Positions 20,838 through 64,000 of a DNA stretch of 64,000 nucleotides are shown here, piece after piece; the stretch's first letter is position 1; each line of letters opens with the position of its first letter. The notes under the pieces are model-generated. The model did not search any database, was not told the origin of the DNA, and saw only the letters and a program-made list of their open reading frames with translations. Both the position numbers and the translations under genes were made by a program. Source of the DNA: Dillenia suffruticosa (lineage: Eukaryota > Streptophyta > Magnoliopsida > Dilleniales > Dilleniaceae); contig JAVTVX010000013.1 in NCBI GenBank assembly GCA_033439265.1, forward strand, positions 20,192,500 to 20,256,499. Direction: 5' to 3'.

Positions 20838-20868
20838 CAAAAAAGTAAAGGGAGTAGAGGAGGGAAGA

Positions 20869-24900: not shown

Positions 24901-26038
24901 TGGGACTTAGGGCCAAGCATGGTTACTCTCGGTCTGATTAGCCTGACTTGTTACATTACTGGGTTGGAAATGGGTTGCGCCTTTTTTAAACTCTCCAACT
25001 TCGCTCAATTTAGCCTTTTTATTTTTATTTTTTAAAAACCAATGGGCATGAAAACATATTTTAACTACGGGTCTAATTTAGAAAGAACTTATCTAACGTA
25101 ATCTTTTTCATTCCCAAATTCAAACTTAAGATTTGGATGAGAGACCTAATACACTTACCACCAACATATAGTCGACATAATGGAATGTAGCGTTAAATTC
25201 TTTAATTAAGTTTTTGGATTTGAGTTTTGGGAATGAAAAATATTACGTTGGGAGGGTAGCCCCGAAATAGATCATTACTAGTTCCAAACCAGATTAATTG
25301 GAATATGATTCCGAATATCAATAATGTATACAAAAAAATCGCTTATCTACTAAACTAATTATTAGTTGGTTCAATTTAGCCTATTTAACCACAAATTATA
25401 TATTTTAGAGATTTTATCTATTAAAATGTAATTGGATAATACATTGGATTTTATTTTATGTTAAACCTATATCTTTATATTTAATAATGCAGCTGAAGTC
25501 CAATTTGGTTCAAATACGTAAGGCTTGAGACAATAAGATTAACTTGTCCTTTTGGTTATTTTTTGGAGAAATTGAGATTAAGTTTAGTTCTGATTAGGTA
25601 AACTCTTTAAGACAAGAAATATTAATATAATAATTTAAATATTTTTATAAAAATTTTGATTTGTACTCAAAAAATTTTTTTGTTTTGTTAAAATTATTTT
25701 ATTTTAGTTAAAACAAATGGAAGAAAATTGCGATTTACAGAATGACACCCGGCCTCAGGGTAGAAAACCTTTTTCCTTGGATCTAGAGTCCTGGTCCGAA
25801 GACAAACCGGCCGTACAATGCCCAAGTTAATTTGTGAGTTGAGGAGCCTCACCGTTTACAAGTCCACGTTGATGTGCCTAACAACGCAAATTCAGAAGCC
25901 ATAATGGCGATAATTGACGGGTGGCCAATTAATAGGCCAATGACTGCCCGCCAGCGAAAGCTGCATTCGTTGACTTATCCACTCATCCAAACCTAGAATC
26001 AATGATCACCCAAACGAAACGAGTCCCTACTCCCCCCC
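24901..26038. other. Gene-free stretch upstream of the DUF247 gene
   Basis: No coding region is supported. About 25,080-25,140 and 25,195-25,255 carry an inverted pair (AACGTAATCTTTTTCATTCCCAAA and its approximate complement), a small hairpin-like feature. The 3' end presumably contains the DUF247 promoter, but no clear TATA box was found. Confidence 0.4.
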
Positions 26039-26060
26039 AAAAAAAAAAAAAAAAAAAAAA

Positions 26061-26095
<35 letters not shown>
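26039..26095 (+). repeat. A-run plus (CT)n tract in the DUF247 leader
   Basis: An A-run (26,039-26,061) is followed by about 16 CT units (26,064-26,095), ending 57 bp before the ATG. CT-rich tracts at this distance are common in plant 5' UTRs and core promoters. Confidence 0.7.
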
Positions 26096-26096
<1 letters not shown>

Positions 26097-26152
26097 ACCT
26101 CTGTCTTTCCTCTCAAAAATTTAAGCCCAAGCCCCAAAAAAATTTTGAAGAG

Positions 26153-42714: not shown

Positions 42715-45700
42715 TTTTTTAAATAGAAGTCTTGTATAATGTTTCTTTTGCACCACCACATAGGTAACAGGAGACTAATATTTCACGTCTAATGATTTGC
42801 AAGCTTGAAATGGATATATTAAAACACATAATTAGAAGAACAGATAATAAGTAACTTTCATGTCTCTGCACTTATTAGACCATCATTCATGCAACTTCAA
42901 ATCAAGCACAAATACAATCAAATGTTAATTTAAAAAGCATGGTTTTTCACACCAGGGATGTGTAACACAAATAGAACTTCAAAAAATTCCAGGGAAGAAG
43001 AAAAGAGCTTACCCATCGAATTGCATAAATCTCATGCAGTAAAAAATGATTGAATTAATAAGTAACTTTCATCTCAAAAGAAACATTACCCCATCTCTGT
43101 GCATCATTTATGCAACTGGTTAGAGAAGCAGATTGCAGTTTTACGACTACTGATATTCTGCATTGAGCGAAACAACTATCAGTAGAATACACCATGGCTT
43201 TTGACTTGTAGTCCTACAAGTAATTAGAAGCTCCCTGCCAAGAAACAGAGAATTTCAAAGACATCGTAAAAAAATTGAAACAAACCATAAAACCTCCTTA
43301 AAAGGGAAAGAGAAAAAATGTGACCCCACCTTATCAGTCCCTTACCCAACTTGGCCCCCCTGAGGATCCTCTTCCTCTTTGTACAGGTCATGAACAATTT
43401 CATCCCTATGGGCCTGTGAAGAGACACCAAATCTCTGTGTGTGTTCACAAATGGCCAATCCGTCGAAGCCACAACCTGAATCAATTCATTTCAACATGTT
43501 AAATTTCATAGATGAGAATTCACTAGGAAAGTTTATTTCTCCTTGTTTAAGGTCTGATGCATGACAATACAAATGACTTACAGCTGCAACTGATGGACTA
43601 GAGCCTTTCCTGATTGTGGGTGACTCACATCAGCTCTCACCATGATTGTTTCTTCCACCAGTCTGTTTAGACCAAATTATCACATATATGAATCGGAATT
43701 CAAGTAAAGGCACTCTGAGAGAATCCAACCTTAACATTATCTTCAGGGCCACATTCTCATGGTACTGTTTGCTATTCTTCTGTGCTTGCTTAGATTGAAT
43801 GCATTAAGAAACACTTCCCAGCTCGTCTCCCAGATTTTCTTAATTTTACCTAAAAATAAATAAATAATTGATATGAAAATCTATTCTACAGCTTCCAGAA
43901 ATTATGCAATCTAACAGTTCAACTAACTCACAATATGATCCCATAACATCAGGTAATATAATTATAAGAAGGTGCAAATACTTACCAGTAGCAGTACACT
44001 CCTTATGAATGTCAATGAGGGACGCCTCAATTTGACTGGAAGGAGCTCTCCTCAAAGGAATTATTGGGTTTGGATTAAATTGCTGAATAACAAACAAAAA
44101 ATCGATGAGTCACAGTTTAAGTTAAGACAACAATCCGTGGTAACTGGCACATCTACATGAAGTCATACTGTTCCCTTGCTGCAACACATGGAGATCAAGT
44201 CACCAAGGAACTGGTGGTATCTGTCTGGGTTCAATCATACAGAGAAATTATGCATGTCCAAGACCCAACCACAGCATCCTTGAGCATTTTCTGTGACATC
44301 AACAAAATGCAAATCATCCAAATTTATTTAAGAACTTGTTGAATTGAATATAACCAAATAAATACAAAATTTCACATCCAAATACTCCCACAACCAAGAG
44401 AAAAAATGAAATTGCGACTTACTTTGTAAATCTTATTCCATTGCCTCAGGGACTGACACACGGTTCTTTCCCAGACAGATTCATTATATTTAAGTTTGAA
44501 CAAATTAGAGTTGAGAAGGAATGTAAGGCTTAAAAAAAAAAAAAAAAAGTTATTATTGCTCACCACATGGCACATGCACACACCACACTTGTTATGCACT
44601 TGACACCTAACATGTTGAGCCCACACTCTACTATGGTATGTGTTATAGTTTGGACACAAGAGACACTTTGATACATAGTTTGTGAATATTAAAGTTTATA
44701 TATGGTGTTTTATACTGGGTGGCCAGGTGGGCCATTGATGCCAGCTTGTCTAATGATAGAAGTGCTAGTTTGATTCAGCCAGATTCTTGTATTTACCCTA
44801 GGTGGCCAACAATCACTAAATAGGGGAGACTCTGTCAGATTTTTATTTGAAAGATCAAAGAAATGGTTTCCTTTTTATTAAATCTCCTTCCATGTTATCA
44901 CACACGGGGAGTGCGACTGTCGCGAGTCCGGACGCTGCATTTTAAATGTTGCCTCCGCTATATGCAGATCTGTTCCGTTCTGTTAGGGTATGCGATGTCT
45001 GGCTAGCGGGTTGTCACAAGGAAAGTCAAATTAAGTTTAATCTAACCTTGTAATCAAAAAGTGAGTGCAGAAAGCTCAAAGCTTACTTGAATCCCAAACA
45101 CATCATTGACAAGCTCATTGATGTTGAAATGTTCACCCTAACCGATTAAAAGAGCAGAAATTGTACACATTGATTACTGGGACAAGGTAGATGAGGCAAG
45201 CGAGTCAAGTACGAAAATAGTTATTTTTTAAAAAAAAATTTAAAACAAAATAGATAAGGAAAAATTTTCAAAATTAGCACAGATATGTTCAGTTTTCAAG
45301 ACTCGACATATTTTACAAAACGGGTCAACAGTCCATATCGAGTCTTGAAGACTCGACATGTATTGTACATGTCCTCTTGTCTACTAATTGAAGCCCAACC
45401 CAATGGATCTAGTCCAATCTAATTTGAACTCGTTTTGTGTCTACTGTACATCTCGGACAAAATCTACATGTCCCCTCTCTCTCTTTCCCTCTCTCTTCCC
45501 GCCTTGCACCCTTTGGATCTGCATGAAAACCAAAGGCAAGAAAAGGAGGGCTTTGGTTCTTGGTCCCAAAAAGCAGGCAAGGAGATGAAAAAAAGGGGGG
45601 AAGCACATTTCAATGGACCATCTTATCACACACACATCCCCTTAATCCCTTCCCCCATTCCCTCAAATACAAGTCACAAAACACGCCAAAAATAGGAGAA

Positions 45701-47675
45701 ATATATCCAAAAAAATAATAATAATCAACTATTCACTTTTTGTCATGTCATTACCTCCAACAGCCTAAGCTTGCTTTTGTTCCTTCTCTCGTCTTGTATT
45801 TACATCCAATCTAAACAGTAGCAACATAGAAAAGCTAAAAACCCACCAAAATGACGATATGGCCATGTAGTGGTGTCCCGACATATACAATACATGTTGA
45901 GTCTTGAACACTCGAGATGTACTCTTGACCCATTTTTTAAAACATGTCTTTGTTTTCAAGACTGGATATGTGTGTATTCAGTTTAGAATTTTTATCCATC
46001 CATGTTATTTTAAAATTTTTCTTTGAAAATAAGGCTATTTCCGTACATGATTCTAAGGCAAGCAACTCACCATACAAAGGCAGAGACCAAACTTGAAACA
46101 TGTAAACTTCGATTAAAAAGTTAAGAAATTATTTACCCTCTTGATGCAGTTTTCCCATTCCAGAGGTTGACATGTTGCTTTTCAAAGTGCAGTCACCTGC
46201 CTTTCATTAAACTTCTTTGTTTATCTTTGTCCAGAAGGTCACAGCTGCTTGTTTTCCAAGTAAGAAAATCAAATTACATCAATTTACAGAGTCCACAGAG
46301 AAGCAAAGAGCAACTAAACCCACCTCGATAGGCAAATAGACAGGTTTTAGAATCTGTTCCAGCTTCAAGAGCTGGCAAAAATGAATAATAGATTTCAACA
46401 ATATTTGTCACGACAATACTCTACTACCCAGACTACCCAAACTGTTGTACCCTTGTCGTTCTTAAAGCTATTTGAAAAATGAAAGACAATTAACATTGTT
46501 AAACATGACACTGCTTCAAAAAACGTATAAAAGGCACAGGTACATAACTATAATTATATGGAAAAGGAAAAACAATTAACATTGTTAAACATGACATTGC
46601 TTCAAACAAAGCATAAAAGGCTCAGGTACATAAATATAATTTTTACGGGGAAGCATAAACTAACAAATCAAGATACTAAAAATACTTTACTCTAGGGACC
46701 ATCACAAATTGGTAAAATCACGAAGACATCACTTTAAGTGAAAAATCACCGATATGTAGATGCTAAAACTCTATTCATGGAAGAATTAAAATAATCACAA
46801 ATTAAAGACCGAAAGCTTACGTCAATTGGCTTATTGGCTGAGGAGTTGTTGTTTTGCGTGATCCCTATAAGTAAGCCCCACTCGAACTCCTTCCGGGCTT
46901 TCTTCACCTGGAGAAACAAATTGAGAAAACACAATATGTCAATATTATTAACACATGAAAACCCAAATGACCAGAATGACCTCTAAGACAGAGCACCCTC
47001 CAATTCACTAAACCCTCATCACATTCACCATCAAGAGAGTGTATTTGATAAATTACAAACGGCCCGTGTTTCCAAAACTAGAAAATAGTTGAAGCAAATC
47101 AAAAAGTAAATTTTCTCCAATAGCCATTTTAAATGCTGACATGTTCACATAAGCAAATGGGGCAAAATTGACTACACAAACTATTACTAAAATCTACTTC
47201 AAATCTCTCAACATTCTTTTACCGTTCAAACTAGTATAGTATCGACATGGAAAGATGAAATCTTTATGAACAACAACTAACGAGAAACAAAATACCTCAA
47301 TACGATCCTGGTCGTATAAAGGCCTTGCTAAATCTCTGAGGTTGAAATACTTTGAAACAAACTCCAAAGCCAAGACTGGCTCATAGAAGGCTCTGGCTGA
47401 CACATCTGCAAGGATTCAATGGGAAGAAGACAATCACAATAAGACTTACAAGAAGTGTCTGAGCAACATTAAACAACAATACAAAATACAACAGAAATCA
47501 AAAGTTCCGTGAAAGGATGGGTACCAATATTTAGAGAAAGTCCCATTTGAACTGAGTACAAACTATGATAATATCCACGCCAATATTCCATCCTGTCCCC
47601 AAGCTCACCAGTAGGACCCAAATCCATAGAAAGGAACGATCTTCCAACTATGGTATCCAACAACAACAACAAAAA
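42715..47675 (-). pseudogene. AGO5-like ARGONAUTE pseudogene, copy 1 (intron-bearing)
   Basis: Exons in minus-strand order retain GT-AG borders. N/L1 region at about 47,660-47,525 has [19 protein letters not shown] and VQMGLSLNI. 47,405-47,296 continues in frame with VSARAFYEPVLALEFVSKYF and ARPLYDQDRIE. 46,907-46,821 has VKKARKE and then, after a frameshift, VGLTYRDHAK. PAZ sequence at about 46,470-46,325 gives LPALEAGTDSK. Mid sequence follows at about 45,120-43,985 (VVGSWTC, SQIEASLIDIHKECTA, LLIIILPDV). PIWI pieces are ADVSHPQSG (about 43,640), VVASTDWPFV (about 43,480), QAHRDEIVHDLYKEEEDPQ in a shifted frame, and YVVVQKKHYTRL near 42,770. ARGONAUTEs bind small RNAs and slice or repress targets. 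Frameshifts, stops, a MITE in an intron and no true 5' or 3' end make this a pseudogene. The best family match by eye is the AGO1/5/10 clade, closest to AGO5. Confidence 0.85.
45202..46055. mobile_element. MITE/MULE-like element with terminal inverted repeats of about 170 bp
   Basis: The left end GAGTCAAGTACGAAAATAG (from 45,202) and the inverse of the right end, GAATCATGTACGGAAATAG, match. The similarity continues inward for about 170 bp, including CAAGACTCGACAT, GGGTCAA and CATGTATTGTACATGTC counterparts. AGGCAAGC flanks both sides (45,194-45,201 and 46,056-46,063). The sister AGO copy has the undivided site GGTAGGCAAGCAACTT at about 49,985-50,000. A duplication of 8-9 bp with long inverted repeats suggests a Mutator-like or hAT-like non-autonomous element. 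The interior is CT-rich and non-coding. Confidence 0.8.
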
Positions 47676-48114
47676 ACTAATCCCTAATCCTAACTACGGT
47701 ATATTTGTTATAAAAATTTTTAGACCATTAAAAAAATGTAATCCTTATCTGAAAATCTTTCGCATAATGTGCAATCTAAATTTGGATTAAATTTAGAATA
47801 TGAATTTGTTCTCATTGAACAATGCATAATAGTGGGTGGGTCGACTTGTTCCCTATATGGATTAAATTTCAAGTCATACAATCACAACAACAAATTCAAT
47901 TTTGCTTAGTCAGTTAGACATGAATGCTTGAATGTTTATGCCCAAGAATACAAGATTGTGGTATCGATGATGGTACCTGAGGCAGGTATATGGAAAAGGT
48001 CAGATTGCCTATATATGTATGTGTGTGTGTGTATCAATCACAAACTCTGCGGCCAGACTAGAACCCCGGTAAAATGTTTCCACTCCTATCTATGAATTCA
48101 CAATCTCTCTGACT
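47676..48114. other. Spacer between AGO pseudogene copies 1 and 2
   Basis: No exon recognised. It contains a (GT)n run near 48,017-48,032. The start of AGO exon 1 sequence is not found here, so copy 1 is 5' truncated. Confidence 0.45.
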
Positions 48115-50410
48115 TGCAGGAACAAGTCTTGTATGATGTCTCTTTTGCACCACCACAAAGGTAACGGGAGACTTTTATTTCTCTTCTAATGACATACAAG
48201 CCAGAAATAGATATATTAAAACAAAACAAATAATTAGAAGGAGAACAAATAATAAGTAGCTTTAATGTCCTTGCACATATTAGACCATCATTCAAGCAGT
48301 TTCAAATCAAGCACAACTACAACCAGGTGTTAATTTAAAAAGCATGCTTTTTTCACACAAGGGATGGGTAACACAAACAAAACTTAAAAAAATTCTTCGG
48401 AAGAAGAAAAGAAGCTTACCCATCGAATTGCATCCATCTCATGCAGCAAAACGTCATTGAATTGGCCTTCACTTACCCCATCTCTGTGCATTATTTATGC
48501 CGATGGTTAGAGAAGCAGATTGCAGTTTTACGACTAATGATGTTCTGCATTGAGCAAAACAACTATCTGTAGAATATTGATTAGTAGTCCTTCTAAAAGC
48601 AATTAGAAGCTCCCTGCCAAAAAACAGAAAATTTCAAAGACTGACATAAAAAAAATTGCAACAACATTAAAAGGGAAAGGGAATAACTTGGCCCTGCTGA
48701 GGATCCTCTTCCTCTTTATACAGGGTCATGAAATTTCATCCCTATGGGTCTGCAAAGAGACCAGACCTTTGTATGTTATGTGGTCACAAATGGCCAATCC
48801 CTCCTGGTTGTGGGTGAGTCACATCCTCTCCCAAGATGATTGTAGGTTTATCAGAAACATGAGGAATTCTTCTATCAATAGCATCACACAGCGCCATCTT
48901 TCTTCCACCTGTCTGTTTAAACAAAATTATCACATATCTGAATTGGAATTCAAGTGAAAGACACTCTAAGAGAATCCAACCCTAACATTTATCTTCAGGG
49001 CCACATTCTCATGGTATTGCTTCCTATTCTTCTACGCTTGGCTTGGGCTGAATGCATTGAGAAACAATTCCCAGCTCTGTCTCACAGATTTTCTTAACTT
49101 TACCTATAAATAAATAAATAAATAATTGATATGAAATCTATTCTACAGCTTCCAGAAATTATGCAATCTAAAAGTTCAACAAACTCACAATATGATCCAG
49201 TAACATCAGGTAATATAATTATAAGAAGCTGCAGATACTTCCCATTAGCAGTACACTCCTTATGAATGTCCATGACGGCCGTCACCATTTGATCAGGAGG
49301 AGTTATCCTCGGAGGAACTATTGGGTTTGGATTAAATTACTGAATGACAAACAAAAAATCGATGAGTCACCGTTTAAGTTCAGACAACAATCCATGGTAA
49401 CTAGAACATCTACACTGTCATACCATTCCCTTGCAGCAACACATGGAGATCAAGTCACCAAGGAACTGGTGGAATCGGTCTGGGCTCAATCATGTGGAGA
49501 AATTTATGCATGTCCAAGACCCAACCACAGCACCCTTGAGCATTTTCTGTGAAATCAATAAAATGCAAATCATCCAAATTTACTTAAGAACTTGTTGAAT
49601 TGAATATAACCACATAAATACTAAAATTTTCATCCAAATACTTCCACAACCAAGCAAAAAAAAAATGAAATTGCAACTTACTTTGTCAATCATCTTCCAC
49701 AGCCCAACTGGAGGACTGACACACAATTCCTTCCCAGATTCATTATATTTAAGCTGGAACAAATCAGAGTTGAGAAGGAAAGTCAAATTATGCTTAATCT
49801 TAAGTCAGAGTAACCAAAAAGTGAGTACAGATACCATTGAGGGTGGCAAAACATGAGCATTGAGTGCAGAAAGCTGAAAGCTAAATTGAATCCCAAACTC
49901 ATCATTGACAAGCTCATTGCTGTAAATGTTCTCCCTAACCATCTAAAAGAGCAGAAATTGTACACAATAATTATTGGGACTAGGTAGGCAAGCAACTTAT
50001 TATACAAAGGCAGAGGCCAATCTTGAAACATGAAAACTCAGGTAAAGAAGCTAAGAAACCTGTTTTCCCTTTCCAGAGGTCATTGAAATGTTGCTTTTAA
50101 AGTACAGGCACCTGCTTTTCATTAAACTTCTTTGTATATCTTCGTTCCCAAACAATGCTGCAATACAGTTAAACAAACTCATTATCAAGTGCTAAAGGCC
50201 ACAGCTGCTTGTTTCCAAGTAAGAGAATCAAATTAAATCAATTTACAAAGTCCACAGAGAAGCAAAGAGCAACTAAACCCACCTCCTTAGGCAAATAGAA
50301 GGGTTTGGAATCTGTTCCAGCTTGAAGAGCTGGCAAAACGTATAATAGATTCCAACGCCATATTTGTCAAGAAAATACTCTACTTCCCAGACTGTTGCAC
50401 CCGTGTCATC
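48115..50410 (-). pseudogene. AGO5-like ARGONAUTE pseudogene, copy 2
   Basis: In minus-strand order: PAZ exon 50,410-50,283 (DDTGATVWEVEYFLDKYGVG, then LPALQAGTDSK and YLPKE only after a frameshift); exon about 49,950-49,833 (MVRENIYSNELVNDEFGIQ, SALNAHVLPPSM) ending in a GTATCT donor; LKYNESGKE and GLWKMIDK (about 49,765-49,680); KMLKGAVVGSWTCINFS (about 49,545-49,490); MDIHKECTANGKYLQLLIII and LPDVTGSY (about 49,280-49,195); DAIDRRIP and EDVTHPQPG (about 48,890-48,810); LYKEEEDPQ (about 48,725-48,695); VLLHEMDAIR (about 48,460-48,425); [14 protein letters not shown] (48,180-48,120). A deletion joins HPQPGG almost directly to DWPFV. Stops and frameshifts occur throughout. It is colinear with copy 1 but starts at PAZ, so the two are tandem duplicates, and it lacks the 854-bp MITE. 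Confidence 0.85.
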
Positions 50411-50672
50411 CTTAAAACTTTATGAAAAATGAAAGACAACATTGTTAAACATGACACTGCTTCAAAAAGAGCATAAAAGACTCAGGTAAATAACCATAAT
50501 TTTAATAGGGGGAATCATAAACTAACAAATCAAGATGCTAAAACCTACGGACCATCACAAATTGTAAAAAACACTAAGACATCACTTTAAGTGAAAAATC
50601 ACAAATATCTACAATGTATGAAAATTACCAATCACAATATCAAGCAAATAAAAATTAAAAAAAAAAAGTTAC

Positions 50673-53600
50673 CAATCACATCGGCTTCACAAAGATGAAT
50701 CTGAAGCCCAATTGCTCGTACAGTAGGATCATGACTCTCAATGCAAGCCTACATAATTATAAGACAAAGAATTAGAACAATTTGCAAAGGTTAAAGCAAT
50801 TACAAATTGGAAATGGAAGAAAAACCATACCACAACAGAGAGGATTTGATTGACACCCCTATCAGGGTTTTTTTCTGCAAACATTTCGAATGGAGGCAGC
50901 CATACTTATAAATATGCTTCCTTCAGATTTAAAATCAGTAAAGCCTTTAGGAAGCAGTAATCCCTAAATGTCCAGAAGAAGCAAACTGATAAGTAAAGAA
51001 AAATAATATGACGACTTTAAAATGGGGAACTCATAGATGGATGTTAGCTGTGGAATAGTCAAATTCAGCACACGGCATCCTGGCTGGGTAACTTTCAAAC
51101 AAACCACATAGCAGAAAATATATGCTACTATACAGTAAAATGATAAAAGCTTTATGATGACAGTTCTCAGAATCCAACATTTTTGCAGAGTAAGATGGAT
51201 GCAGCCAAAAGAGGACGTGTTGCAAACTGTTTTATAGGGTGCAATTTGACCCAATTTAAACATGAACGAGTTTGGTTCTGGCTCACCCTGGTTCAGGTTC
51301 AGAGGATCACAAGTTAGACCAGACCACAGTGACTGGCTTCTATTCAAATTCATTGCAATCCCAAAACCTGGTAAAATCCAAGGGTACAAAGTCAAATTCA
51401 AGAGTCCTTTTCCATTGTCAATCAAGAGACGGTCTGACAGAATTCCACAAGTGTGTAGCTTAAAGAACTAAAGAACCCAACTGAAGAGGTCTTCCTCAAT
51501 GCCAAGCGTCTGATCACATATAGTGCCTGGCCATGCATAAGCTTTAAGTTATCCTAATAAGTGCAAAAGAGAGAAAATTATTTCCCATGTGAATTTAGTA
51601 GTAAATTTCTTTTGCATAACAAACACCATGTAATCAATACCTTAGAGGTAGTCATGAGCTAAAATCCTTTCCCAAGTTGCCTCCCACCCCCCCCCCCAAG
51701 AAAAAAAGTGGTAACTTTTTGAGGAAAAATTCTATATAAACTTCCAAGGAAAAGGAGCCCTTCCCTTGTCCCTACCATCCAATGCACTACATGGGCAAGG
51801 AATAGTGTCTCTTTCCCCACAAGTCAATATTTTCTCAAAGTTCTTTAAAAAATTCCACCATTTGTTATAGTATCTATCACATTCTCGATAAACTATACAA
51901 TAGAACTGGAGGCAATTTAAACAAAGCATCCATGTTTTGGACCTTGTCCTACCTCCCTATCTATAATACTTCAATCACTGCAAACAAGGTTGTTACTGGT
52001 TACAGCCATTTTCTTAATATTTTTGCCTGGGCCCTTCTGTCAAATCAGCATTTACAACCCACAACATTACATCCATAAACCACAACCCAACAAGCAACCG
52101 TGCTACTGCAATGTCAGGCCTAATAACAAATATCTACTTAGCTTGACAAGACGGACGATCCATGTTGTACCAGACATTTCCTTCAGTTTTAAGTTTGTCT
52201 TTCATCAACTTAATTCCATAATATCCACTTCTTCACACACCTGCAAACTACCAAAGACAAGATCATTGATCTCCCAAGTCTTGCAAAGTAAACGAGTGGC
52301 TATAGCGTATAAAACTCTGCAGATGCGAGTAAACAAAATTAAATCTCCTACAAAATTCCTCTAGAAGAACGGTAAAAAAATTTCTTGCAAGATCTAGAGT
52401 GACAATGACAAGTAGCAAAATTGTTTTAAAACTTAAGAAAAAGATGCAACAAGAGTTAAACACCTACCACCAACTTATTGCTCCAGCAATGATACCCTCT
52501 ACACCACTCTGGCAGATTGTTCAGAAAAATGTTGAGCAAGTTCTCAGAACCAATCTGAAGATATTTCCACCAACGGGAACATCACTGTAGAGCATCTAAA
52601 TGTCTTCACAACCACAAGATAAAAATTCAACCAGTACCCAGCTAGTGTGATTGGATGCCTAATTGAACTGATTTGGACAAAGTGCTAGGAACACATAATA
52701 TTCAGACAGGTTGTAGGTGAAGGCCTTGAACCCCAATCCTGAAGGTCAACATGGGAGTCCCAAATGCACAACTTAATGGTGAAAGAAAGGACCAAGAAGA
52801 AATTTACCAAAAAATTGTACCTAAATCAATGCACTGCACCTCACTGTAGTAATTCTTACAACATAATCAGAGCTGTCAACGTTACGGTGTCCAATTAGTT
52901 TATTATTTTTTCATAAGTACTTGATCCAAACCAATGCATCCGTCCAAGGATCCATGCGGCCAATAGCAGCCAAAGAATCTAAAGCATAGCTCCCCGAGGA
53001 ACCATGCATGACTGTAACAGCAGGGATTGAAGAAAAACAAAGGCATTTCTACAGTAGGAAAAGCGGCATTTCAACTAAGAAACAACAGCATGACATAATA
53101 TGAAAATAATAATAATAAGAGAAAGCACAAAAAAGTGGTGCTCCAGGGATTTTACCAGACAAAAAGATTTCTTGAGATTCAAAGATAGGAGGCAAGGACC
53201 ATTTTCTTTCAGATATTTCAATTGAATACTCCTTTAGTTGAGAAAGACAATCTTGCACCATTATTCAGTTCTTGTATACCAGATTTACCAGCAGAGTGAA
53301 AATCCAGAAAGAAAGGACTAAAAGATAGAGATTCGTGAAGACAGAATTGAGTAATGAGACAATTGGCACTTTACTTGATAGGGTGAGAAACAACATTCAT
53401 ATCACCAATAACATACTGTTAAGAACATCTTCAAATGCCTGAAAATAATTTGCAAGCAATTGTCATTATAAAAAGAGTAATTGAAAATCTCAAATGGAAA
53501 AATCAACTCTAGGTCCATGAACAAGAAAATAATATCACTTGGATTGACTAGAAAAAGAAATATACATATCAGGTAAAAAATGGCCAAGGCCATGAACGTA

Positions 53601-53973
53601 TTTGCTTCCGCCCCGATCCATTTATATAATACCTTGTCGTGTGGAATATTGAAATCAGAAAACAAACTAACCAATTAAATTCTTTCAAAACAACTAAAAG
53701 ACATGCAAAAACCACAATATACCTAAAAGGACACATGCTGCCAGAGCTTCAGAATAATAGTACTATGTTTGCTTATAGACAGAGAACCCCTTGGGATTGC
53801 CACCACTTCACTAGGAAAACTCAACAAATTCAGAGACAGCCCTTCCACAATGTAAAGCAGATCAGTGCCTACTGCTGTCACAGATTTAGAAGGAGATGAC
53901 ATCAAATTGATGCCGGGAATTAGAAGCAAAAGCTCTTCAAATATTTCACATCCAGCGTTACCATGTACCTTAA
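50673..53973 (-). pseudogene. RST1 (RESURRECTION1)-like pseudogene, left-arm copy
   Basis: Minus-strand exons with GT-AG borders: 53,973-53,723 (CEIFEE, INLMSSPSKSV, TDLLYIVEG; ends TTTTAG, a stop where the right arm has GAG); about 53,261-53,156 (SQLKEYSIEISERKWSLP, SQEIFLSG); 53,048 to about 52,925 (VMHGSSGSYALDSLAAIGRM, DPW); 52,316-52,241 (ATRLLCKTWEINDLVFGSLQ); 50,963-50,831 (LPKGFTDFKSEGSIFISMAA, SIRNVCRK, then a frameshift in an A-run before DRGVNQILS); 50,748-50,673 (CIESHDPTV, HLCEADVIG, missing two residues). These words match the ARM-like N-terminal half (DUF3730/focadhesin region) of plant RST1, known as a cofactor of the cytoplasmic RNA exosome and for wax phenotypes. The protein's start and C-terminal two thirds are absent. 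Confidence 0.82.
51687..51697. repeat. Poly(C) run in an RST1 intron
   Basis: Eleven C in a row in the left arm. The right-arm counterpart (about 62,110-62,125) reads GGGGCGGTGGG, i.e. interrupted, so the tract expanded or was cleaned up after the duplication. Confidence 0.7.
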
Positions 53974-54479
53974 CTGCAGAACAAAGTGAAGGGATTTTTA
54001 AGCAAAGAAGAAATGAAGAGCATAAAATATATAACACAGGTAAACAGCTAAAGAATCTGGAAATCATACAACATTGATCCAATAATTACCAAATTTCACT
54101 TGCAACAACCAAGTTCAGACAAGTGCAACCATTTTCATAATGCAGCTAAATCAATATGACTCCATTTTGCAGGGAACCAAGCCTACTCCTGCTAAATCAA
54201 TATGACCCCACGGAAATCACCTTACCTCCAAAATTTTCCATTTCTTTTAAGAATGACCAATAGCTAAAAAAATGATATCTAACTTGGAATAAACGATACA
54301 TAGACCCAGAAAAGTCTTTCAAGGTCATTTTCAGTTGTAGCATCTTATTGATATTAATCCAGTTAAGTATCAGACACCAAATAAACAATAAACAATTACA
54401 CAGCAAAGAGAGAGCATACCAAAGGGAGAAATCAAACACAACACCACCGAGTGAAATATAAGCAGTGATGAGAGAGAGC

Positions 54480-54765
54480 AAGAAATTGTAACAATGTCGG
54501 TGGGGGGAGCCGGAGAGAGAGAGAGAGTTTGTAAACCAAAACAAATTCAGAGAGAAGAAAGAGAAAACCATACCGAAGAGAGAAATCAAACACAACATCA
54601 GAGAGAGAGAGAGAGAGAGAAATTGTCGGTGGAGAGATATCAAGAACTTGCAATGTTGGTGGAGAGAGAAGGGGGACAACAAATGATCAGAATTTGAGAT
54701 TCGATAAGCAACGATCATCGCTGAGAAGAAATTATTCCAATGACGGTGAAGGGTCACTGAAATAC

Positions 54766-54796
<31 letters not shown>

Positions 54797-55490
54797 TAAA
54801 TTTAAGCCGATTCCATCAAGAACGTGTAATTAAGAGAAATTCAAAGCAGAGAGAGAGCGAGAACCTGAGAAGGAAATAGATGAGGCGATTAGAGAGAAAA
54901 AAAAACTTGTAGAAACCCAGAAATCAGATACCGGAGAGAGAAATCAAACACAACACCTGCGAGAGAGAGAGAGAGAGAGAGAGATCAAGAAATTGTCGCT
55001 GGAGAGATATCAAGAAATTGCAACGATGTCGGTGGAGAGAGAGGGGGGACAGCAAAAGATCAGAATTTGAGATTCGATCACCGCAACGATCACCGGTGAG
55101 AAGAAATTGTTCCAATGACGGTGAAAGGTCACTGAAATACAAGAGGGAGAGAAAGAGAGAGAGAAATTAAACCCTAACCACACCACAATTCAAAGGATTA
55201 AGAGAATGAAAATAAGCATCTCGACTGCAATGACAGATTTGTGAGAGAGAGAGAGAGGCTAAATTTAAGCCGATGCCATCAAGAACGTGTAATTAAGAGA
55301 AATTCATAGCAGTGAGAGAGAGAACCTGAGAAGGAAATCGATAAGGCGATTAGAGAGAAAAAGAACTTGCAGAAACCCAGAAATCAGAACCCGGAGGGAA
55401 GAGAGAGGGAGAGAGAATAATGGGAATGGAAATCAGAAACCAAAGAAGTTACCGTGAAGGAGGAGAGGGGAAGAGAGAGAGAGAGAATAA
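54480..55490. repeat. GA-rich tandem block, left arm
   Basis: Repeated GAGAGAGA tracts separated by recurring units (GGTCACTGAAATACAAGA, CAGAATTTGAGATTCGAT, GAGATATCAAGAA). It is the complement of 58,440-59,260 in the right arm. It sits where the 5' end of the RST1 fragment would be and codes for nothing recognisable. Confidence 0.7.
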
Positions 55491-56292
55491 TGGGAATGAA
55501 CAATGGTGAGTTTGCAGGGTTTAATTAGACTCGAAAGGGCGAGAATGCAACGCTGGTTCAGACGTAACGGCTATTTTGAGTACAGCTGTATTTTTTATTT
55601 CCATTTTTTTTAACTTCTGACATGTACAGCTGTATTTTTTATTTTTTAAAAGCTATACTTTTTTATTTCTATTTTTTAAAAATGCTGAATTTCAGATTTG
55701 GAGAGACGATTGAAGCTCCAAATTGTCCAGTTTTACGATTTTACCCCCCACGCTTATGTTTTTTAGAAACCAACAAACAATTAAGTTGAATATGAGTTCT
55801 TTGATGATTACCACTTTTCCCTTCAAAATGGAGTTTAAGTAATCAAGAGATTGTGCAATAAAAATAATTAAAATTTTTAGCATAAACTAATTTATTAGAT
55901 TAGTTCACATATGCAATTTTTAACTTTAATTAATCCAAATTTTTGTACTTTCCTTAATGAAACTAAACTCTACACAAGTTTAGTACTCCTGTGATTTAAG
56001 TTTTAATTTTTTATGATTATATAAATAATATTTGAAATGATTTGATAAAACTAATAATATTAATTATTCATTATTATATATATAATAAAGAAGAATTCTT
56101 TAAAATTTTGATACGTCACTCACATTCACTCAATCTTTTTATTTTTATTTTATTTATTATTCATCACTAAATGACATTCTAAACAAATTTCATATTTTTA
56201 CGCGTAAAATATCACAAATCCCATCATTATAATTTGTTTAACCATCTCTCTCTCTCTCTCGATACTATTTTCTTGTAAGCTACAATAGTATT

Positions 56293-57620
56293 TGCAAGTC
56301 TATCATTTCTGGTAAAGGGTTGCATATGTTTGGTCATTTCTTTCTTTCTATAATTTTCTAACGATCTAATTTATTTTGTTGACAACAATTTTTCTTTTTT
56401 TTTTTTAAAGGAACAACAAAACAAAGGTTTTAGGGAAAGGTTGATAAAGATTTTCTTTAGATAGTATTTTTATTTTATTGGTATAAATAGAACGAGATCA
56501 CTAGATTCTAAAAGAATATTACTGAAATATCACTGATTTCTTTAAGTCTTGAATATCACCTCAACAAAGCCGGATACACCTTCTTAGGGGGAGACAACAA
56601 ATCATGAAATCCATGAGTAACCGAGTAACCAAGACGACTTAAAGTGTCTGCACAAGTGTTGCCCTCTCTTAAAACAAATTGAACAGGTTGAACCCTTGCG
56701 AGCCGCATTAATTGAATGCATTCTTGGAGGATGTTAAAAACAGATCCTCCTTTTGTGTCGATACAAGTTCTACCGAATCCAACTCAAGGATCAGGGGAAA
56801 CATTTGCACAAAGAATAAGTAGAAGACCTTCTTTGACTCTCCATACTTCTGCCATGGAGGGATCAGTTACCCCCAATTTATTAGTAAATCCATTCACACA
56901 TGATCCATACTCATCACCCGGTTTAGATAGTGGTTTTGAAACCACTCTAAGTAGCATGCTTTTAAAACCTTTGTTTTGAACAAAGTTTTTAATTCAATGT
57001 GATGATCTAATTATTAAAACAAGTATCTGACTCGTAGATTTTAAAACCAACTTACATCTATGTCATATTTGAAAAATGTCAAACTTTTGACTAAATCTCC
57101 AACATGAAGGTAAAGATCACATAGATTTTAAAATCATCTTGCATATTTTGAAAAATGATAGAATTTATATCCAGTTTCTTACATAACCATAATTTTTATG
57201 GGAGGAATCATAAACTAACAAATCAAGATGTCAAAAATAATTTAATCCAGAAGCCATTACAAATTGTAAAAATCACTTGTAAAAATTAGTAAGATATCAC
57301 ATTAATCGAAAAATCACTGATACGTAGATGATAAAATTCTAACACATGAAATCCTAAATGACCATAATGACTCCCAGGATAAAAGACCACCGTCCAATTC
57401 ATTAAACTTGCACCGCATTCACCACCAAGAGAGTGTATTTGATAAATTACAAACAACCCGTGTTTCAAAAACCCAAAAATAATCTAAGCAAATCAGAAAG
57501 CAAATTTTCGCCGAATAACCATTTTTAATGTTAATATGTTCCTGTAAACAAATAGGACAAAATTGACTCTACAAATTATCACTTAATTCTACTTCAAATC
57601 TCTTAACATGCTTTTACCCT
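56293..57620. other. Loop of the inverted repeat
   Basis: About 1.3 kb between the arms. 56,560-56,910 is the truncated LINE fragment also found at 38,880-39,410 (here without the SINE). About 57,186-57,600 is AGO-pseudogene intron sequence matching 46,640-47,230, but lacking the exon that lies at 46,821-46,907 in that copy. Words such as CATAAACTAACAAATCAAGA and GAGAGTGTATTTGATAAATTACAAA confirm the match. No intact gene. Confidence 0.7.
56560..56910 (-). mobile_element. Truncated LINE fragment, second copy
   Basis: Minus-strand pieces include ELDSVELVS, LREGNTCADTLSRLGYSVTH and GFHDLLSPP, i.e. the RNase H end of a plant LINE ORF2. It is nearly identical to the copy at 38,880-39,410, and the uninterrupted site at about 56,868-56,885 proves the SINE at 39,220 is a later insertion. 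Confidence 0.65.
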
Positions 57621-58439
57621 AATACTATTGTAGCATTCAAGTAAATAGTATCCATAGAGAGAGAGAGAGAGAGAGAGATGGTTAAACAAATTATAATGAT
57701 CGGATTTGTGATATTTTACATGTAAAAATATGATATTTGTTTAGAATGACATTTATTGAAGAATAGTAAAAAAAATAAAAATGAAAAGATTGAGTGAATG
57801 CGAGTGAGTGATGTATCAAAATTCTAAAGAATTCTTCTTTATTATATATAATAATGAATAATTGATAATATTATTAGTTTTATCAAAATCATTTCAAGAT
57901 ATTATTTGTATAATCATAAAAAAATAAAAAAAAATAAAACTTAATCACAGGACTATTAAACTTGTGTAGAGTTTAGTTTCATCAAGGAAAATGCAAAAAA
58001 TTAGATTAACTAAAGTTAAAAATGGCATATGTGAACTAATTTAATAAATTAGTTTATGCTAAAAATTTTAATTTTTTTATTGCACGATCTCTTGTCTTGA
58101 TTACTTAAATTCCATTTTGAAGGGAAAAGTGGTAATCACCAAAGAACCAATATTCAACTTAATTGTTTGTTGGTTTCTAAAAACCATAAGCGTGGGGGGT
58201 AAAATCGCAAAACTGAACAATTTGGAACTTAATCGTCTCTCCAAATCTGAAATACAGCTTTTTTTAAAATAGAAATAAAAAAGCATAGCTTTTTTAAAAA
58301 ATAAAAAATAAAAATACAGCTGTACATGTAAGAAGTTTAAAAAAATAGAAATAAAAAAATACAGCTGTACTCAAAATAGCCGTTAGGTCTGAACCAGCGT
58401 TGCATTCTCTCTCTCGAGTCTAATTAAACCCTGCAAACT

Positions 58440-59260
58440 CACCATTATTCATACCCATTACTCTCTCTCTCTCTCTCTCTCCCCCTCTCCTTCTTCGCGG
58501 CAACTTCTTCGGTTTCAGTCCATTCCCATTATTATCTCTCTCTATCTCTCCCCTCCGGTTTCTTTGCAAATTCTTTTTCTCTCCAATCGCCTCATCGATT
58601 TCGTTCTCAGGTTCTCTCTCTCTGCTATGAATTTCTCTTAATTACACGTTCTTGATGGCATCGGCTTAAATTTAGTCTCTCTCTCTCTCTCTCTCTCTCA
58701 CAAATTTGTAATCGCAGTCGAGGTGCTTATTTTCATTCTCTTAATCCTTTGAATTGTGGTGTGGTTAGGGTTTAATCTCTCTCTCTCTCTCTCTCTCTCT
58801 CTTGTATTTCAGTGACCTTTCACAGTCATTGGAACAATTTCTTCTCACCGGCGATCGTTGCGGTGATCGAATCTCAAATTCTGATCATTTGCTGTCCCCC
58901 TTTTCTCTCCACCGACATCGTTGCAATTTCTTGATATCTCTCCCCCGACAATTTCTTGATCTCTCTCTCTCTCTCTCTCTAGCACAGATCTGTCATTGCA
59001 GTCGAGGTGCTTATTTTCATTCTCTTAATCCTTTGAATTGTGGTGTGGTTAGGGTTTAATCTCTCTCTCTCTCTTGTATTTTAGTGACCTTTCACCGTCA
59101 TCGGAATAATTTCTTCTCAGCGGTGATCGTTGCGGTGATCGAATCTCAAATTCTGATCATTTGTTGTTCCCTTTCTCTCTCCACCAACATTGCAATTTCT
59201 TGATATCTCTCCACCGACAATCTCTCTCTCTCTCTCTCTCTCTCTCGCAGATGTTGTGTT
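58440..59260. repeat. CT-rich tandem block, right arm (unit of about 280 bp)
   Basis: A unit starting GCAGTCGAGGTGCTTATTTT occurs at about 58,716 and again at 58,997. Each is followed by GGTGTGGTTAGGGTTTAATC, a CT run and CTTGTATTT.AGTGACC. The complement is present in the left arm. Frames across it give Ser/Leu-rich nonsense. Confidence 0.65.
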
Positions 59261-59868
59261 TGATTTCTCTCTTCGGTATGGTTTTCTCTTTCTTCTCTCT
59301 GAATTTGTTTAGGTTTACAAACTCTCTCCCCCCCACCGACATTGTTACAATTTCTTGCTCTCTCTCATCACTGCTTATATTTCACTCGGAGGTGTTGTGT
59401 TTGATTTCTCCCTTTGGTATGTTTTCTGTCTCTTTGCTGTGTATTTGTTTATTGTTTATTTGGTGTCTGATACTTAACTGGATTAATATCAATAAGATGC
59501 TACAACTGAAAATGACCTTGAAAGGCTTTTCTGGGTCTATGTATCATTTATTCCAAGTTAGATATTATTTTTTTTTTTGCTATTGGTTATTCTTAAAAGA
59601 AATGGAAAATTTTGGAGGTAAGGTGATTTCCTTGGGGTCATATTGATTTAGCAGGAGTAGGCTTGGTTCCCTGTAAAATGGAGTCATATTGATTTAGCTG
59701 CATTATTAAAATGGTTGCACTTGTCTAAACTTGGTTGTTGCAAGTGAAATTAGTTAATTATTGGTTCAATTTGTATGATATCCAGATTCTTTAGCTGTTT
59801 ACCTGTGTTATATATTTTATGTTCTCCGTTTCTTCTTTGCTTAAAAATCCCTTCACTTTGTTCTGCAG

Positions 59869-62800
59869 TTAAGGTACATGGTAAAGCTGGATGTGAAATA
59901 TTTGAAGAGTCTTTTCTTATACTTCCTGCCATCAATTTGATGTCATCTCCTTCTAAATCCTTGAAAGCAGTAACCACTGCTCTGCTTTACATTGTGGAAG
60001 GACTGTTTCTGAATTTGTTGAGTTTTCCTAGTGAAGTGGTAGCAATCCCAAGGGGCTCTCTGTCTATAAGCAAACATAGTACTATTATTCTGAAGCTTTT
60101 GCAGCATGTGTCCTTTGAGGTATATTGTGGTTTTTCCATGTCTTTTAGTTGTTTTGAAAGAATTTAATTGGTTAGTTTGTTTTCTGATTTCAATATTCCA
60201 CACAACAAGGTATTATATAAACGGATCGAGGCTGAAGCAAATACGTTCATGGCCTTGGCCATTTTTTACCTGATATGTATATTTGTTTTTCTAGTCAATC
60301 CAAGTGATATTATTTTCTTGTTCATGGACCTAGAGTTGATTTTGTCATTTGAGATTTTCAATTACTCTTTTTATAATAACAACTGCTTGCAAATTATTTT
60401 CAGGCATTTGAAGATATTCTTAACAGTATGTTATTGGTGATATGAATGTTGTTTCTCACCCTATCAAATAAAGTGCTAATTGTTTCATTACTCAATTCTG
60501 TCTTCACGAATCTCTATCTTTGAGTCCTTTCTTTCTGAATTTTCACTCTGCCGGTAAATCTGGTATACAAGAACTGAATAATGGTGCAAGATTGTGTCTT
60601 TCTCAACTCAAGGAGTATTCAATTGAAATATCTTGAAGAAAATGGTCCTTGCCTCCTATCTTTGAATCTCTAGAAATCTTTTTGGCTGGTAAAATCCCTG
60701 GAACACCACATTTTTGTGCTTTCTCTTATTATTATTATTATTATTATTATTTTCATATTTATCATGCTGTTGTTTCTTAGTTGAAATGCTGCTTTTTCTA
60801 CTGTAGAAATGCCTTTGTTGTTCGTCAATCCCTGCTGTTCCAGTCACGCATAGTTCCTCGCGGAGCTATGCATGGATCCTTTGGAAGGATGCATTGGTTT
60901 GGATCCAGTACTTATGAAAAAATAATAAACTAATTGGACACTGTAACATTGGCGGCTCTGATTATGTTGGAATTACTACAGTGAAGATAGGTGCAGTGCA
61001 TGGTTTTAGGTACAATTTTTTGGTAAATTTCTTCTTGGTCCTTTATTTCACCACTAAGTTGTGCATTTGGGACTCCCATGTTGACCTTCGGGTTCAAGGC
61101 CCCCACATACAACCTTTCTGAATATTGTGTGTTCCTAGCATTTTGTCCAAATCAGTTCAATAAGGCATCCGATCACACTAGCTGGGTCCTGGTTGAAATT
61201 TTATCTTGCGGTTGTGAAGACATTTAGATGCTTTACAATGATGTTCCCATTGGTGGAAATATCTTCAGGTCGGTTCTAAGAACTTGCTCAACATTTTTCT
61301 GAACAATCTGCCACAGGGGTGGTAAAGGGTATCATTGCTGGAGCAATAAGTTGGTGGTAGGTGTTTAACTCTTGTTGCGTTCTTTTTCTAAAGTTTTTAA
61401 ACAATTTTGCTACCTGTCATTGTCACTCTAGTTCTAGCAAGGAAATTTTTTTACCGTTCTTCTAGAGGAATTTTGTAGGAGATTTAATTTTGTTTACTTG
61501 CATCTGCAGACAGCCACTCGTTTACTTTGCAAGACTTGGGAGATCAATGATCTTGTCTTTGGTAGTTTGCAGGTATGTGAAGAAGTGGATATAATGGAAC
61601 TAAGTTAATGAAAGACAAACTTAAAACAGAGGGAAATGTCTGGTACAACATGGATCCGTCTTGTCAAGCTAAGTAGATATCTGTTATTAGGCCTGACATT
61701 GCAGTAGTGTGGTTGCTTTTTGGGTCATGGTTTATGGATGTAATGTTGTGGGTTGTAAATGCTGATTTGACAGAATGGCCCAGGCAAAAATATTAAGAAA
61801 ATGGCTGTAACCAGTAACAACCTTGTTTGCAGTGATTGAAGTATTATAGATAGTGAGGTAGGACAAAGTCCAAAACATGGATGCTTTGTTTAAATTGCCT
61901 CCAGTTCTATTGTATAGTTTATAGAGAATGTGATAGATACTATAACAAATGGTAGAATTTTTAAAAGAACTTTGAGAAAATATTGACTTGTGAGGAAAGA
62001 GACATTATTCCTTGCTCATGTAGTGCATTGAATGGTAGGGACAAGGGAAGGGCTCCTTTTCCTTGGAAGTTTATATGGAATTTTTCCTCAAAAAGTTGCC
62101 ACTTTTTTTGGGGCGGTGGGAGGGAACTTGGGTGGTAGGGATTTTAGCTCTTGACTACCTCTAAGGCATTGGTTACATGGTTTTTGTTATGCAAAAGAAA
62201 TTTACTACTAAATTCACAGGGGGAAAATTTTTCTCTCTTTTGCACATATTAGGATAACTTAAAGCTTATGCATGGCCCGGCACTATATGTGATCAGACAC
62301 TTGGCATTGGGGAAGACCTGCTCAGTTGGGTTCTTTAGTTCTTTAAGCTACATGCTTGTGGAATTCTGTCAGACCTGTTCAGTTGAATTTGACTTTGTAC
62401 CCTTGGATTTTACCAGGTTTTGGGATTGCAATGAATTTGAATAGAAGCCGGTCACTGTGGTCTGGTCTAACTTGTGATCCTCTGAACCTGAACCAGGGTG
62501 AGCCAGAACCAACCTCGTTCATGTTTCAATTGGGTCAATTGGCACCCTATTAAAACAGTTTGCAACACGTCCTCTTTTGGCTGCGTCCATCTTACTCTGC
62601 AAAAATGTTGGATTCTGAGAACTGTCATCATAAAGCTTTTTATCATTTTACTGTATTGTAGCATATATTTTCTGCTATGAGGATTGTTTGAAAGTTACCC
62701 AGCCAGGATGCCTTGCACTGAATTTGACTATTCCACAGCTGGCGTCCATCTATGATTTCCCCATTTTAAAGTCCTCATATTATTTTTCTTTACTTATCAG

Positions 62801-63122
62801 TTTGCTGCTTCTGGACATTTAGGGATTACTGCTTCCTAAAGGCTTTACTGATTTTCAATCTGAAGGAAGCATATTTATAAGTATGGCTGCCTCCATTCGA
62901 GATGTTTGCACAAAAAAAACCCTGATAGGGGTGTCGATCAAATCCTCTCTGCTGTGGTATGGTTTTTCTTCCTTTTCCATTTTGTAATTGCTTTAACCTT
63001 CGCAAATTGCTCTAATTCTTTCTGGCTTATAATTTTGTAGGCTTGCATTGAGAGTCATGATCCTACTGTTTGAGCAATTGGGCTCCAGATTCTTGCCCAT
63101 CTTTGTGAAGCCGATGTGATTG
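59869..63122 (+). pseudogene. RST1-like pseudogene, right-arm copy
   Basis: Plus-strand exons: 59,869-60,119 (open frame: CEIFEESFLILPAINLMSSP, LLYIVEGLF, ending in GAG|GTATAT); about 60,595-60,690 (SQLKEYSIEIS, then a stop, then RKWSLPPIFES); about 60,805-60,905 (the SGSYALDSLAAIG region is partly deleted); 61,510-61,572 (ATRLLCKTWEINDLVFGSLQ, 5' end shortened by 13 bp relative to the left arm); 62,823-62,956 (LLLPKGFTDFQSEGSIFIS, MAASIRDVC, then a frameshift in an A8 run); 63,041-63,122 (CIESHDPTV, a TGA, then AIGLQILAHLCEADVIG). Lesions differ from those in the left arm, so each arm preserves parts the other lost. Same RST1 region as the left copy; start and C-terminus are absent. Confidence 0.82.
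60725..60751. repeat. (TTA)n microsatellite in the right arm
   Basis: About nine units. The left-arm counterpart near 53,107-53,118 has only three to four AAT units, an indel difference since the duplication. Confidence 0.85.
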
Positions 63123-63149
63123 GTAACTTTTATATTTTTATTTGCTCCT

Positions 63150-63290
63150 TTGGTGATCTCGAGATTACGGGTTTGAGGCGTGAAAACAGTCTCTTTGCAA
63201 AAAATGCAAAGGAAAGGCAGCGTATATATATGCCTACCCTCCCCTACTCCCGCACTAAGCCGGGGAGCACTTTGTGCAAGGGGTGAGCCA
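63150..63290 (+). mobile_element. Au-type SINE in the right arm
   Basis: The order GATTACGGGTTTGAGGCG (B-box region), GAAAACAGTCTCTTTGCA, AAATGCAAAGGAAAGGC, CCTCCCCTACTCCCGC and GCACTTTGTGCAAGGGGTGA corresponds to the Au SINE family widespread in angiosperms, as I recall it. The left arm at about 50,635-50,668 has no such sequence (TTTTTATTTGCTTGATATTG runs through on the complement). The A-box end is not clear, so it may be 5' truncated. Confidence 0.65.
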
Positions 63291-63518
63291 TTTGTGACTG
63301 GTAATTTTCATACTTTGTATATATCAGTGATTTTTCACTTACAGTGATGTCTTAGTGATTTTTACAATTTGTGATGGTCCCTAGGTTTTAGCATCTTGAT
63401 TTGTTAGTTTATGATTCCCCCTATTAAAATTATGGTTATGTACCTGAGTCTTTTATGCTTTTTTTGAAGCAGTGTAATGTTTAACAATGTTGTCTTTCAT
63501 TTTTCATAAAGTTTTAAG

Positions 63519-64000
63519 GATGACACGGGTGCAACAGTCTGGGTAATAGAGTATTTTTGTGACAAATATGGTGTCGGAATCTGTTATATGTGTTTTGCCA
63601 GCTCTTCAAGCTGGAACAGATTCCAAACCCGTCTATTTGCCTAAGGAGGTGGGTTTAGTTGCTCTTTGCTCAATTTGATTCTCTTACTTGGAAAGCAAGC
63701 AGCTTTGGCCTTCAGCACTTGATAATGAGTTTGTTTAACAGTATTGCAGCATTGTTCTGGGACAAAGATATACAAAGAAGTTTAATGAAAGGCAGGTGCT
63801 TGTACTTTTAAAAGCAACATGTCAACGACCTCTGGAAAGGGAAAACAGCATCAAGAGGGTTTCTTAACTTCTTTACCAGATTTATTCATGTTTCAAGATT
63901 GGCCTCTGCCTTTGTATAATAAGTTGCTTGCCTACCTAGTCCCAATAATTATTGTGTACAATTTCTACTCTTTTAGATGGTTAGGGAGAACATTTTAACA
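63519..64000 (+). pseudogene. AGO5-like pseudogene, copy 3 (right arm, cut by window end)
   Basis: The PAZ exon at 63,519-63,648 gives DDTGATVWVIEYFCDKYGVG and then, after a frameshift, LPALQAGTDSKPVYLPKE; it has an AAG acceptor and a GTGGGT donor. The next exon begins near 63,978 (ATGGTTAGGGAGAACAT) and is cut by the window end. It follows the RST1 exons in the same orientation, mirroring copy 2 in the left arm. Confidence 0.8.

Follow-up and report, generated by a model that had tools for sequence, protein, structure and literature searches.

The stretch of Dillenia suffruticosa DNA analysed here, hereafter the window, comprises the 64,000 nucleotides at C13:20,192,500-20,256,499 of an assembly of 596 Mb in 37 contigs. 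It contains a large palindrome carrying pieces of an Argonaute gene and of RST1, and as the right end of the window falls within the inverted repeat, the extent of the palindrome was mapped with approximately 50 kb of flank around the window. Positions given without a contig name follow the window numbering. BLAST with the flank places the outer limits of the arms at 40,969 and 72,917, giving approximately 15.3 kb per arm around a 1.3 kb spacer. The following features can be distinguished:

40969..56292, minus strand (the sense of the pseudogenes): left arm, matched to the right arm in 15 BLAST pieces of 87.6-95.7% identity
42520..47957, minus strand: Argonaute pseudogene copy 1, with remnants of N, PAZ, MID and PIWI exons, in tandem to copy 2
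47953..50602, minus strand: Argonaute pseudogene copy 2, PAZ to PIWI exons, adjoining RST1 at ~50,602-50,606
50606..56199, minus strand: 5' part of an RST1 pseudogene in the left arm, colinear with C29:1,842,173-1,849,738 at 80-86%
55720..56199, minus strand: RST1 upstream flank in the left arm, colinear with C29:1,839,889-1,840,318
56293..57620, no strand: spacer of 1,328 bp, a mosaic of a reverse-transcriptase-like element fragment and an Argonaute fragment
57621..64000, plus strand: in-window part of the right arm by BLAST, extending to 72,917 beyond the window
57724..63143, plus strand: right-arm copy of the RST1 block, by colinearity with C29 and a DUF3730 match (E 9.1e-16, hand-stitched exons)
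63144..63291, no strand: insertion of ~140 bp in the right arm only, from a gap in the arm alignment with the sequences side by side
63292..64000, plus strand: right-arm Argonaute PAZ exons (63,595-63,651; 63,766-63,861; PAZ E 1.7e-12, hand-stitched)

The original prediction of oppositely oriented arms, each 6.3 kb or longer, about a 1.3 kb loop is borne out by self-BLAST of the window, the full arms being larger. The inverted pairs recovered, each with an E of 0.0, are 59,060-63,143 against 54,781-50,652 (4,181 columns, 91.7%), 57,663-58,980 against 56,260-54,964 (89.4%) and 63,292-63,995 against 50,637-49,924 (89.7%). This pairing ends inward at 56,260 and 57,663, to which a genome search adds an inverted match of 56,204-56,292 with 57,621-57,719 at 86%; from the latter, the predicted loop of 56,293-57,620 proves exact to the base. 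Aligned end to end, the in-window parts of the arms are identical at 5,735 of 6,128 positions (93.6%); gaps occur in 58 runs, and no perfect stretch exceeds 82 bases. Over the full arms, 40,969-56,260 against 57,663-72,917, 13,311 of 14,350 columns are identical, an inverted repeat with the high arm complementarity (92.8%) expected of an endogenous inverted repeat (endoIR) locus; there are 1,039 substitutions and 130 gap runs (K2P 0.076), and the longest perfect run is again 82 bp. Hence the description of the duplex as 'near-perfect' was too strong, the arms having diverged by ~7%. Of the 15 BLAST pieces joining the arms, 12 are colinear and three lie off-register among CT-rich repeats. At the outer ends, identity drops from 85% to 73% and then 44% in steps of 500 columns, at ~41.2-40.3 kb on the left and 72.7-73.7 kb on the right. 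A search of the window against Rfam gave no match at gathering scores.

Large palindromes are a recognised problem for assemblers, and the structure could on this ground be suspected to be an artefact. The arms, however, differ at the 1,039 aligned positions and 130 gap runs described above, their private insertions are different (~140 bp at 63,144-63,291 on the right, and ~420 extra bases near 44.5-45.0 kb on the left), and the window contains no N. The arm divergence of ~7% exceeds that of a fold-back read, which makes an assembly error in the inverted order unlikely, and the palindrome as a whole is very unlikely to be an artefact.

The spacer includes a match to RVT_3 at 56,559-56,783 on the minus strand (E 0.0029), the 18 bits of which fall under the family cut-off of 21.6, and its segment at 57,340-57,618 resembles Argonaute DNA at 46,949-47,223 and at other sites on C10 and C13, with 76-81% identity.

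The colinearity between the RST1 block and the gene on C29 includes introns. This RST1-type gene has open frames over ~1,840.4-1,860.6 kb, the outer of which were named RST1 on our own reading. The DNA matched by the inner arm ends, C29:1,839,889-1,840,318, stops ~90 bp short of the probable start codon of RST1, the ATG at 1,840,405; in place of the first-exon stretch the arms have CT-rich repeats, with no alignment to the C29 gene. Judging from the sequence, each arm contains a copy of the 5' portion of RST1, the upstream flank of which is nearest the palindrome centre, because the inner ends match DNA upstream of the likely ATG. A genome search with the arm segment 50,650-54,450 identified C29:1.842-1.850 Mb, C29:23.83 Mb and fragments on C12, C29 and C2. 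Five stretches of the genome match DUF3730 (PF12530, described by Pfam as Focadhesin/RST1), four at C29:1.841-1.850 Mb and one on C12; three of the four at C29 (1,841,023-1,849,664) and that on C12 are above the cut-off. The right-arm exons belong to the RST1/Focadhesin family by this same domain: stitched by hand, in a query that skips one frameshift and has an X at one stop, they match 'Focadhesin/RST1, DUF3730' (E 9.1e-16). Changes in the length of an A-run affect an RST1 exon in both arms, and a stop interrupts it in the right arm. A retrocopy, or processed pseudogene, was rejected as introns are kept and colinear with C29:1.842-1.850 Mb.

Raw reading frames reveal much less. The RST1-like open frame at 59,754-60,164 found no meaningful match in the PDB, and even the N-terminal exon of the C29 gene scores only weakly against Pfam (E 0.084). 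A six-frame read-through Pfam scan of 49,900-57,000 detected neither Argonaute nor RST1, one plus-strand frame of the same interval had no match in the PDB, which is little informative with that strand antisense to the exons, and a search of ten selected pieces against Pfam yielded no more than RVT_3 (E 0.0029) and a weak match to PAZ (E 0.085). These negatives are overturned because the genome search and the hand-stitched exons matched. RST1 is described in the available part of the source as connecting the cytosolic exosome with the Ski complex and as preventing secondary siRNAs from endogenous mRNAs (PMC6711988), in agreement with the background originally given for it, an exosome cofactor whose loss in Arabidopsis goes along with ectopic siRNAs from coding transcripts.

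Each arm also carries two tandem partial Argonaute copies of AGO1/5/10 type, for which AGO5 was the putative name originally given. Copy 2 is, for most of its length, 84% identical to C10:14.81 Mb and 82% identical to C10:22.31 Mb. The presence of both gene families in the arms, as predicted, is confirmed by the stitched right-arm exons (PAZ E 1.7e-12; DUF3730 E 9.1e-16) and the colinearity of RST1 with C29. Argonaute exons had been placed within 49,920-64,000, and PAZ exons are indeed found there near 50.1-50.4 and 63.5-63.9 kb, but these are a small share of the total, with most Argonaute exon remnants lying farther out, beyond 49.9 kb on the left and 64 kb on the right. The right-arm PIWI stretches fall outside the window at 64,817-65,162, with Piwi matches above the cut-off at C13:20,257,316-20,257,477 and 20,257,497-20,257,661, one TAG in each; two further right-arm PIWI stretches beyond the window score under it. 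None of the 55 matches of the Piwi profile in the genome is in the left arm. A stitched PIWI piece scored weakly (E 0.056), and the best match of 48,787-48,981 on the minus strand to a solved structure is Argonaute 10, chain 7sva (E 8e-8).

Using exon-like pieces of an AGO10-like gene on C11 as queries, the stops in the four Argonaute copies of the arms add up to 4, 9, 8 and 7 when overlapping matches are all counted, or to 4, 7, 7 and 6 distinct stops on our own count, some of them in read-through intron ends. Six of seven exon peptides match the C11 gene, at 38-68%, and the seventh does not. Among the loci examined, a set that leaves out Argonaute genes on C1, C9, C15, C35 and at C10:4.70 Mb, the most complete relative is the Argonaute at C10:22.31 Mb, with 24 matched stretches and eight stops, none of which is read as interrupting an exon before its end. 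Identity between the pieces of this gene and the arms ranges over 78-88%, and is mostly 81-84%.

The join between RST1 and Argonaute at ~50,602-50,606 in the left arm is found again in the right arm. When the matches obtained with either side of this junction (at least 38 and at least 32) were compared, no common locus beyond these arms was found, and hence the block is not dispersed as a repeat family. We infer that the chimera is older than the mirror duplication, because the join is common to both arms and no other locus among these matches has both of its sides. The two arms are colinear DNA-level copies that include introns and intergenic sequence, as expected of an inverted segmental duplication. 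With this anatomy of intron-level colinearity, shared junction, stops and frameshifts, the locus is most probably a chimeric block of RST1 and Argonaute pseudogenes that was copied at the DNA level in an old inverted segmental duplication, rather than a dedicated hairpin gene. In the proposed sequence of events, 5' RST1 DNA, comprising upstream flank, introns and exons, would have been joined to a decaying Argonaute cluster of AGO1/5/10 type; the whole ~15.3 kb block would later have been duplicated as a mirror image around the 1.3 kb spacer, after which both arms would have decayed as pseudogenes, any default transcription of them being directed outward. The mutational mechanism and the lack of a dedicated function are likewise deductions, and the arms are assumed to be non-functional. 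Further fragments of Argonaute (C10:14.8 Mb, C13:23.75 Mb) and of RST1 (C29:23.83 Mb, C12) imply that both families have shed pseudogene copies. Alternatively, the 93% identity over 15 kb could have been kept through gene conversion or selection on pairing.

The differences between the arms carry a possible trace of methylation. Differences of the C-to-T type affect 121 of 672 CG, 90 of 1,545 CHG and 381 of 7,957 CHH sites over the full arms, which suggests past CG methylation of the arms, patchy for CHG; relative to CHH, CG is clearly in excess over the full arms and CHG only slightly. In Argonaute copy 2 the CHG level is raised (13/229, against 18/940 for CHH), as it is in the distal block (10/87 against 53/762); in the RST1 block CHG is not raised (15/511 against 76/2,320), and the inner arm ends exhibit little CG excess (8/104, against 41/619 for CHH). 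Such past methylation could also come from silencing. Two comparison repeat pairs disagree, one having a weaker CG excess (5/30, with CHH at 35/450) and the other none (7/212 against 49/735), and the trace, which does not show RNA-directed methylation, was set aside as evidence of it.

Whether the palindrome is in addition a source of small RNAs depends on how it would be transcribed. The sense of both RST1 and Argonaute is the minus strand in the left arm and the plus strand in the right, i.e. away from the centre, at which the RST1 upstream flank is found in both arms. Ordinary transcription would therefore yield two outward, non-complementary sense RNAs, and a hairpin would need antisense read-through of one arm because the sense strands point outward. 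A hairpin by default is thus structurally not favoured by the outward orientation of both genes. A putative endoIR siRNA gene, in which read-through RNA folds into a long imperfect hairpin that is processed into 21, 22 and 24 nt siRNAs acting on their own locus and, perhaps, silencing related pseudogenes as well, is an unlikely reading of the locus, although several properties of the arms would suit it. The runs without a mismatch that reach 21 nt number 213, 21-mers agree perfectly at 3,542 positions, and in a plus-strand RNA 94.8% of aligned arm positions would pair when G:U is counted; precedents are described in the available text on Arabidopsis endoIR-siRNAs (PMC4687873), the VIM4-VIM2 palindrome (PMC13213937) and soybean CHS (PMC6710647). 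Mismatches are stated to lower the self-silencing of hairpins in work on transgenes (PMC9263138, available in part). The transcript, however, would need to cross one arm in the antisense direction, at a length of ~32 kb for the full arms, and the RST1 upstream flank points outward, as does the sense of both genes. Furthermore, with 7% divergence and 130 gap runs the duplex formed would be long but imperfect, less perfect than that of the soybean arms, which are described as identical in the part of that report available (PMC6710647). The base rate for pseudogenes is also low, at least in rice, for which the accessible text gives 145 of 11,956 as strong candidate sources of antisense small RNAs in the grain (PMC2708354).

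A more far-reaching proposal is that siRNAs from the hairpin target the mRNAs of the intact Argonaute and RST1 genes in trans, forming a feedback loop on the silencing machinery. The Argonaute query used here consisted of the exon-like parts of the C10:22.31 Mb gene in 20 hand-trimmed spans (2,441 bases), the exon limits of both parents having been read by eye. Of its 2,041 21-mer sites, 861 match the arms with at most two mismatches and 159 perfectly, while one Markov-resampled control gave no sites at up to three mismatches and 10 at up to four. For RST1, 139 of the 277 sites in the DUF3730 stretch inside the duplicated block match within two mismatches. In soybean, the genes reached by the CHS siRNAs have 81% similarity to CHS4 according to the available part of that report (PMC6710647), a level comparable with the 81-84% identity of most of the Argonaute pieces in the arms to the most complete paralogue examined. 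Silencing of the parent genes by the arms would accordingly be possible on the strength of these matches, but it needs everything that the endoIR reading needs and a regulatory effect besides. The in-window arms alone match only 129 of the 2,041 Argonaute sites at up to two mismatches, 12 of them perfectly, and the other three of the four DUF3730 stretches have no site within three mismatches of the arms (0/598, 0/253 and 0/109). Such action in trans is hence regarded as very unlikely, and any regulation of AGO or RST1 by the palindrome is speculative. The version in which the hairpin would form in some tissue, its siRNAs tuning both a small-RNA loader and a decay factor that prevents siRNAs, is a slimmer prospect still. 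If true, silencing would be controlled at both ends by a single locus, through Argonaute and through an exosome adaptor; in the collection of papers searched, none mentions both AGO5 and RST1.

An old inverted segmental duplication of pseudogenes thus remains the preferred reading, and it can be set beside natural inverted repeats described elsewhere in plants. Gene-bearing palindromes are already known, of which that of RST1 and Argonaute is a further example; a few natural inverted duplications have been reported to control their own gene families, and such duplications are proposed, in the part of the source available, as a source of new miRNA-like regulators (PMC1820830). The present one is notable for its size, for its pieces of RNA-silencing and RNA-quality-control genes, and for its identifiable parents. 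As far as the accessible text of each report goes, the soybean I locus has two mirror-image arms bearing CHS genes, of 10.91 kb each around a 5.71 kb spacer (PMC6710647), the head-to-head VIM4-VIM2 palindrome of Arabidopsis Cvi-0 consists of epigenetic-pathway genes (PMC13213937), the Arabidopsis endoIR loci IR71 and IR2039 are long endogenous inverted repeats that give long dsRNA if transcribed (PMC4687873), and Tpd1 of Teosinte Pollen Drive is a long natural hairpin-type locus (PMC11390486). The Dillenia palindrome differs from all of these in being known from DNA alone. The soybean arms, described as identical and recent, produce siRNAs, whereas those of Dillenia are 7% diverged and pseudogenic; read-through RNA, siRNAs and a reduction of VIM1 are reported for VIM4-VIM2, whereas the Dillenia arms are broken pieces of two unrelated genes. 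IR71 and IR2039 are reported to be expressed and to be processed by DCL2, DCL3 and DCL4, and Tpd1 gives rise to 22 nt siRNAs against Tdr1 in pollen. Set against these systems, the question posed by the locus is whether a head-to-head palindrome of this age, with arms 7% diverged, can still supply Dicer with substrate; if it does not, it illustrates how such structures decay into ordinary pseudogenes.

At the inner ends of the two arms of the palindrome (window 54964-56260 and 57663-58980), CG decay is slight, unlike in the rest of the arms: C-to-T-type differences between the arms affect 8 of 104 CG sites in these stretches, compared with 41 of 619 CHH sites. This might be the pattern expected of an unmethylated, promoter-like stretch.

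The RST1 upstream flank is adjoined in the palindrome by CT-rich repeats (window 58676-59246 and 54570-55396), which are laid out differently in the left and right arms and have a tandem unit of 272 bp in the latter. A further repeat lies to the right of the palindrome:

85479-89377 (window coordinates; locus L011): direct-repeat pair, approximately 1.4 kb each, 92% identical.

DNA matches to the RST1 block are also found elsewhere in the D. suffruticosa assembly, at C29:23.83 Mb, C29:12.96 Mb, C2:1.86 Mb and C12:25.51 and 25.58 Mb, the match at C12:25.51 Mb scoring above the DUF3730 cut-off and containing two stops. The probable RST1 gene on contig C29 contains an insertion:

C29:1843228-1846435 (locus L030): insertion flanked by two 0.75-kb direct repeats, 89% identical.

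By eye, the open frames adjoining this insertion look like those of a retroelement.

Left of the palindrome, the window contains the following open frames:

16701-22644, minus strand: non-LTR-type retrotransposon, two long adjacent open frames.
26006-27505, plus strand: DUF247 open frame, 499 aa, matching the whole profile (E = 5e-121).

The 1,397-aa retrotransposon frame has RVT_1, RVT_3, zf-RVT and endonuclease domains, and the second, of 591 aa, is of the DUF4283/zinc-knuckle type. DUF247 is a plant family of unknown function.

More Argonaute paralogues, decaying and containing stops, are present at C10:14.81-14.83 Mb and C13:23.75 Mb (loci L014-L016 and L018). Copies of this Argonaute seem to have multiplied, and then been lost, in D. 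suffruticosa.
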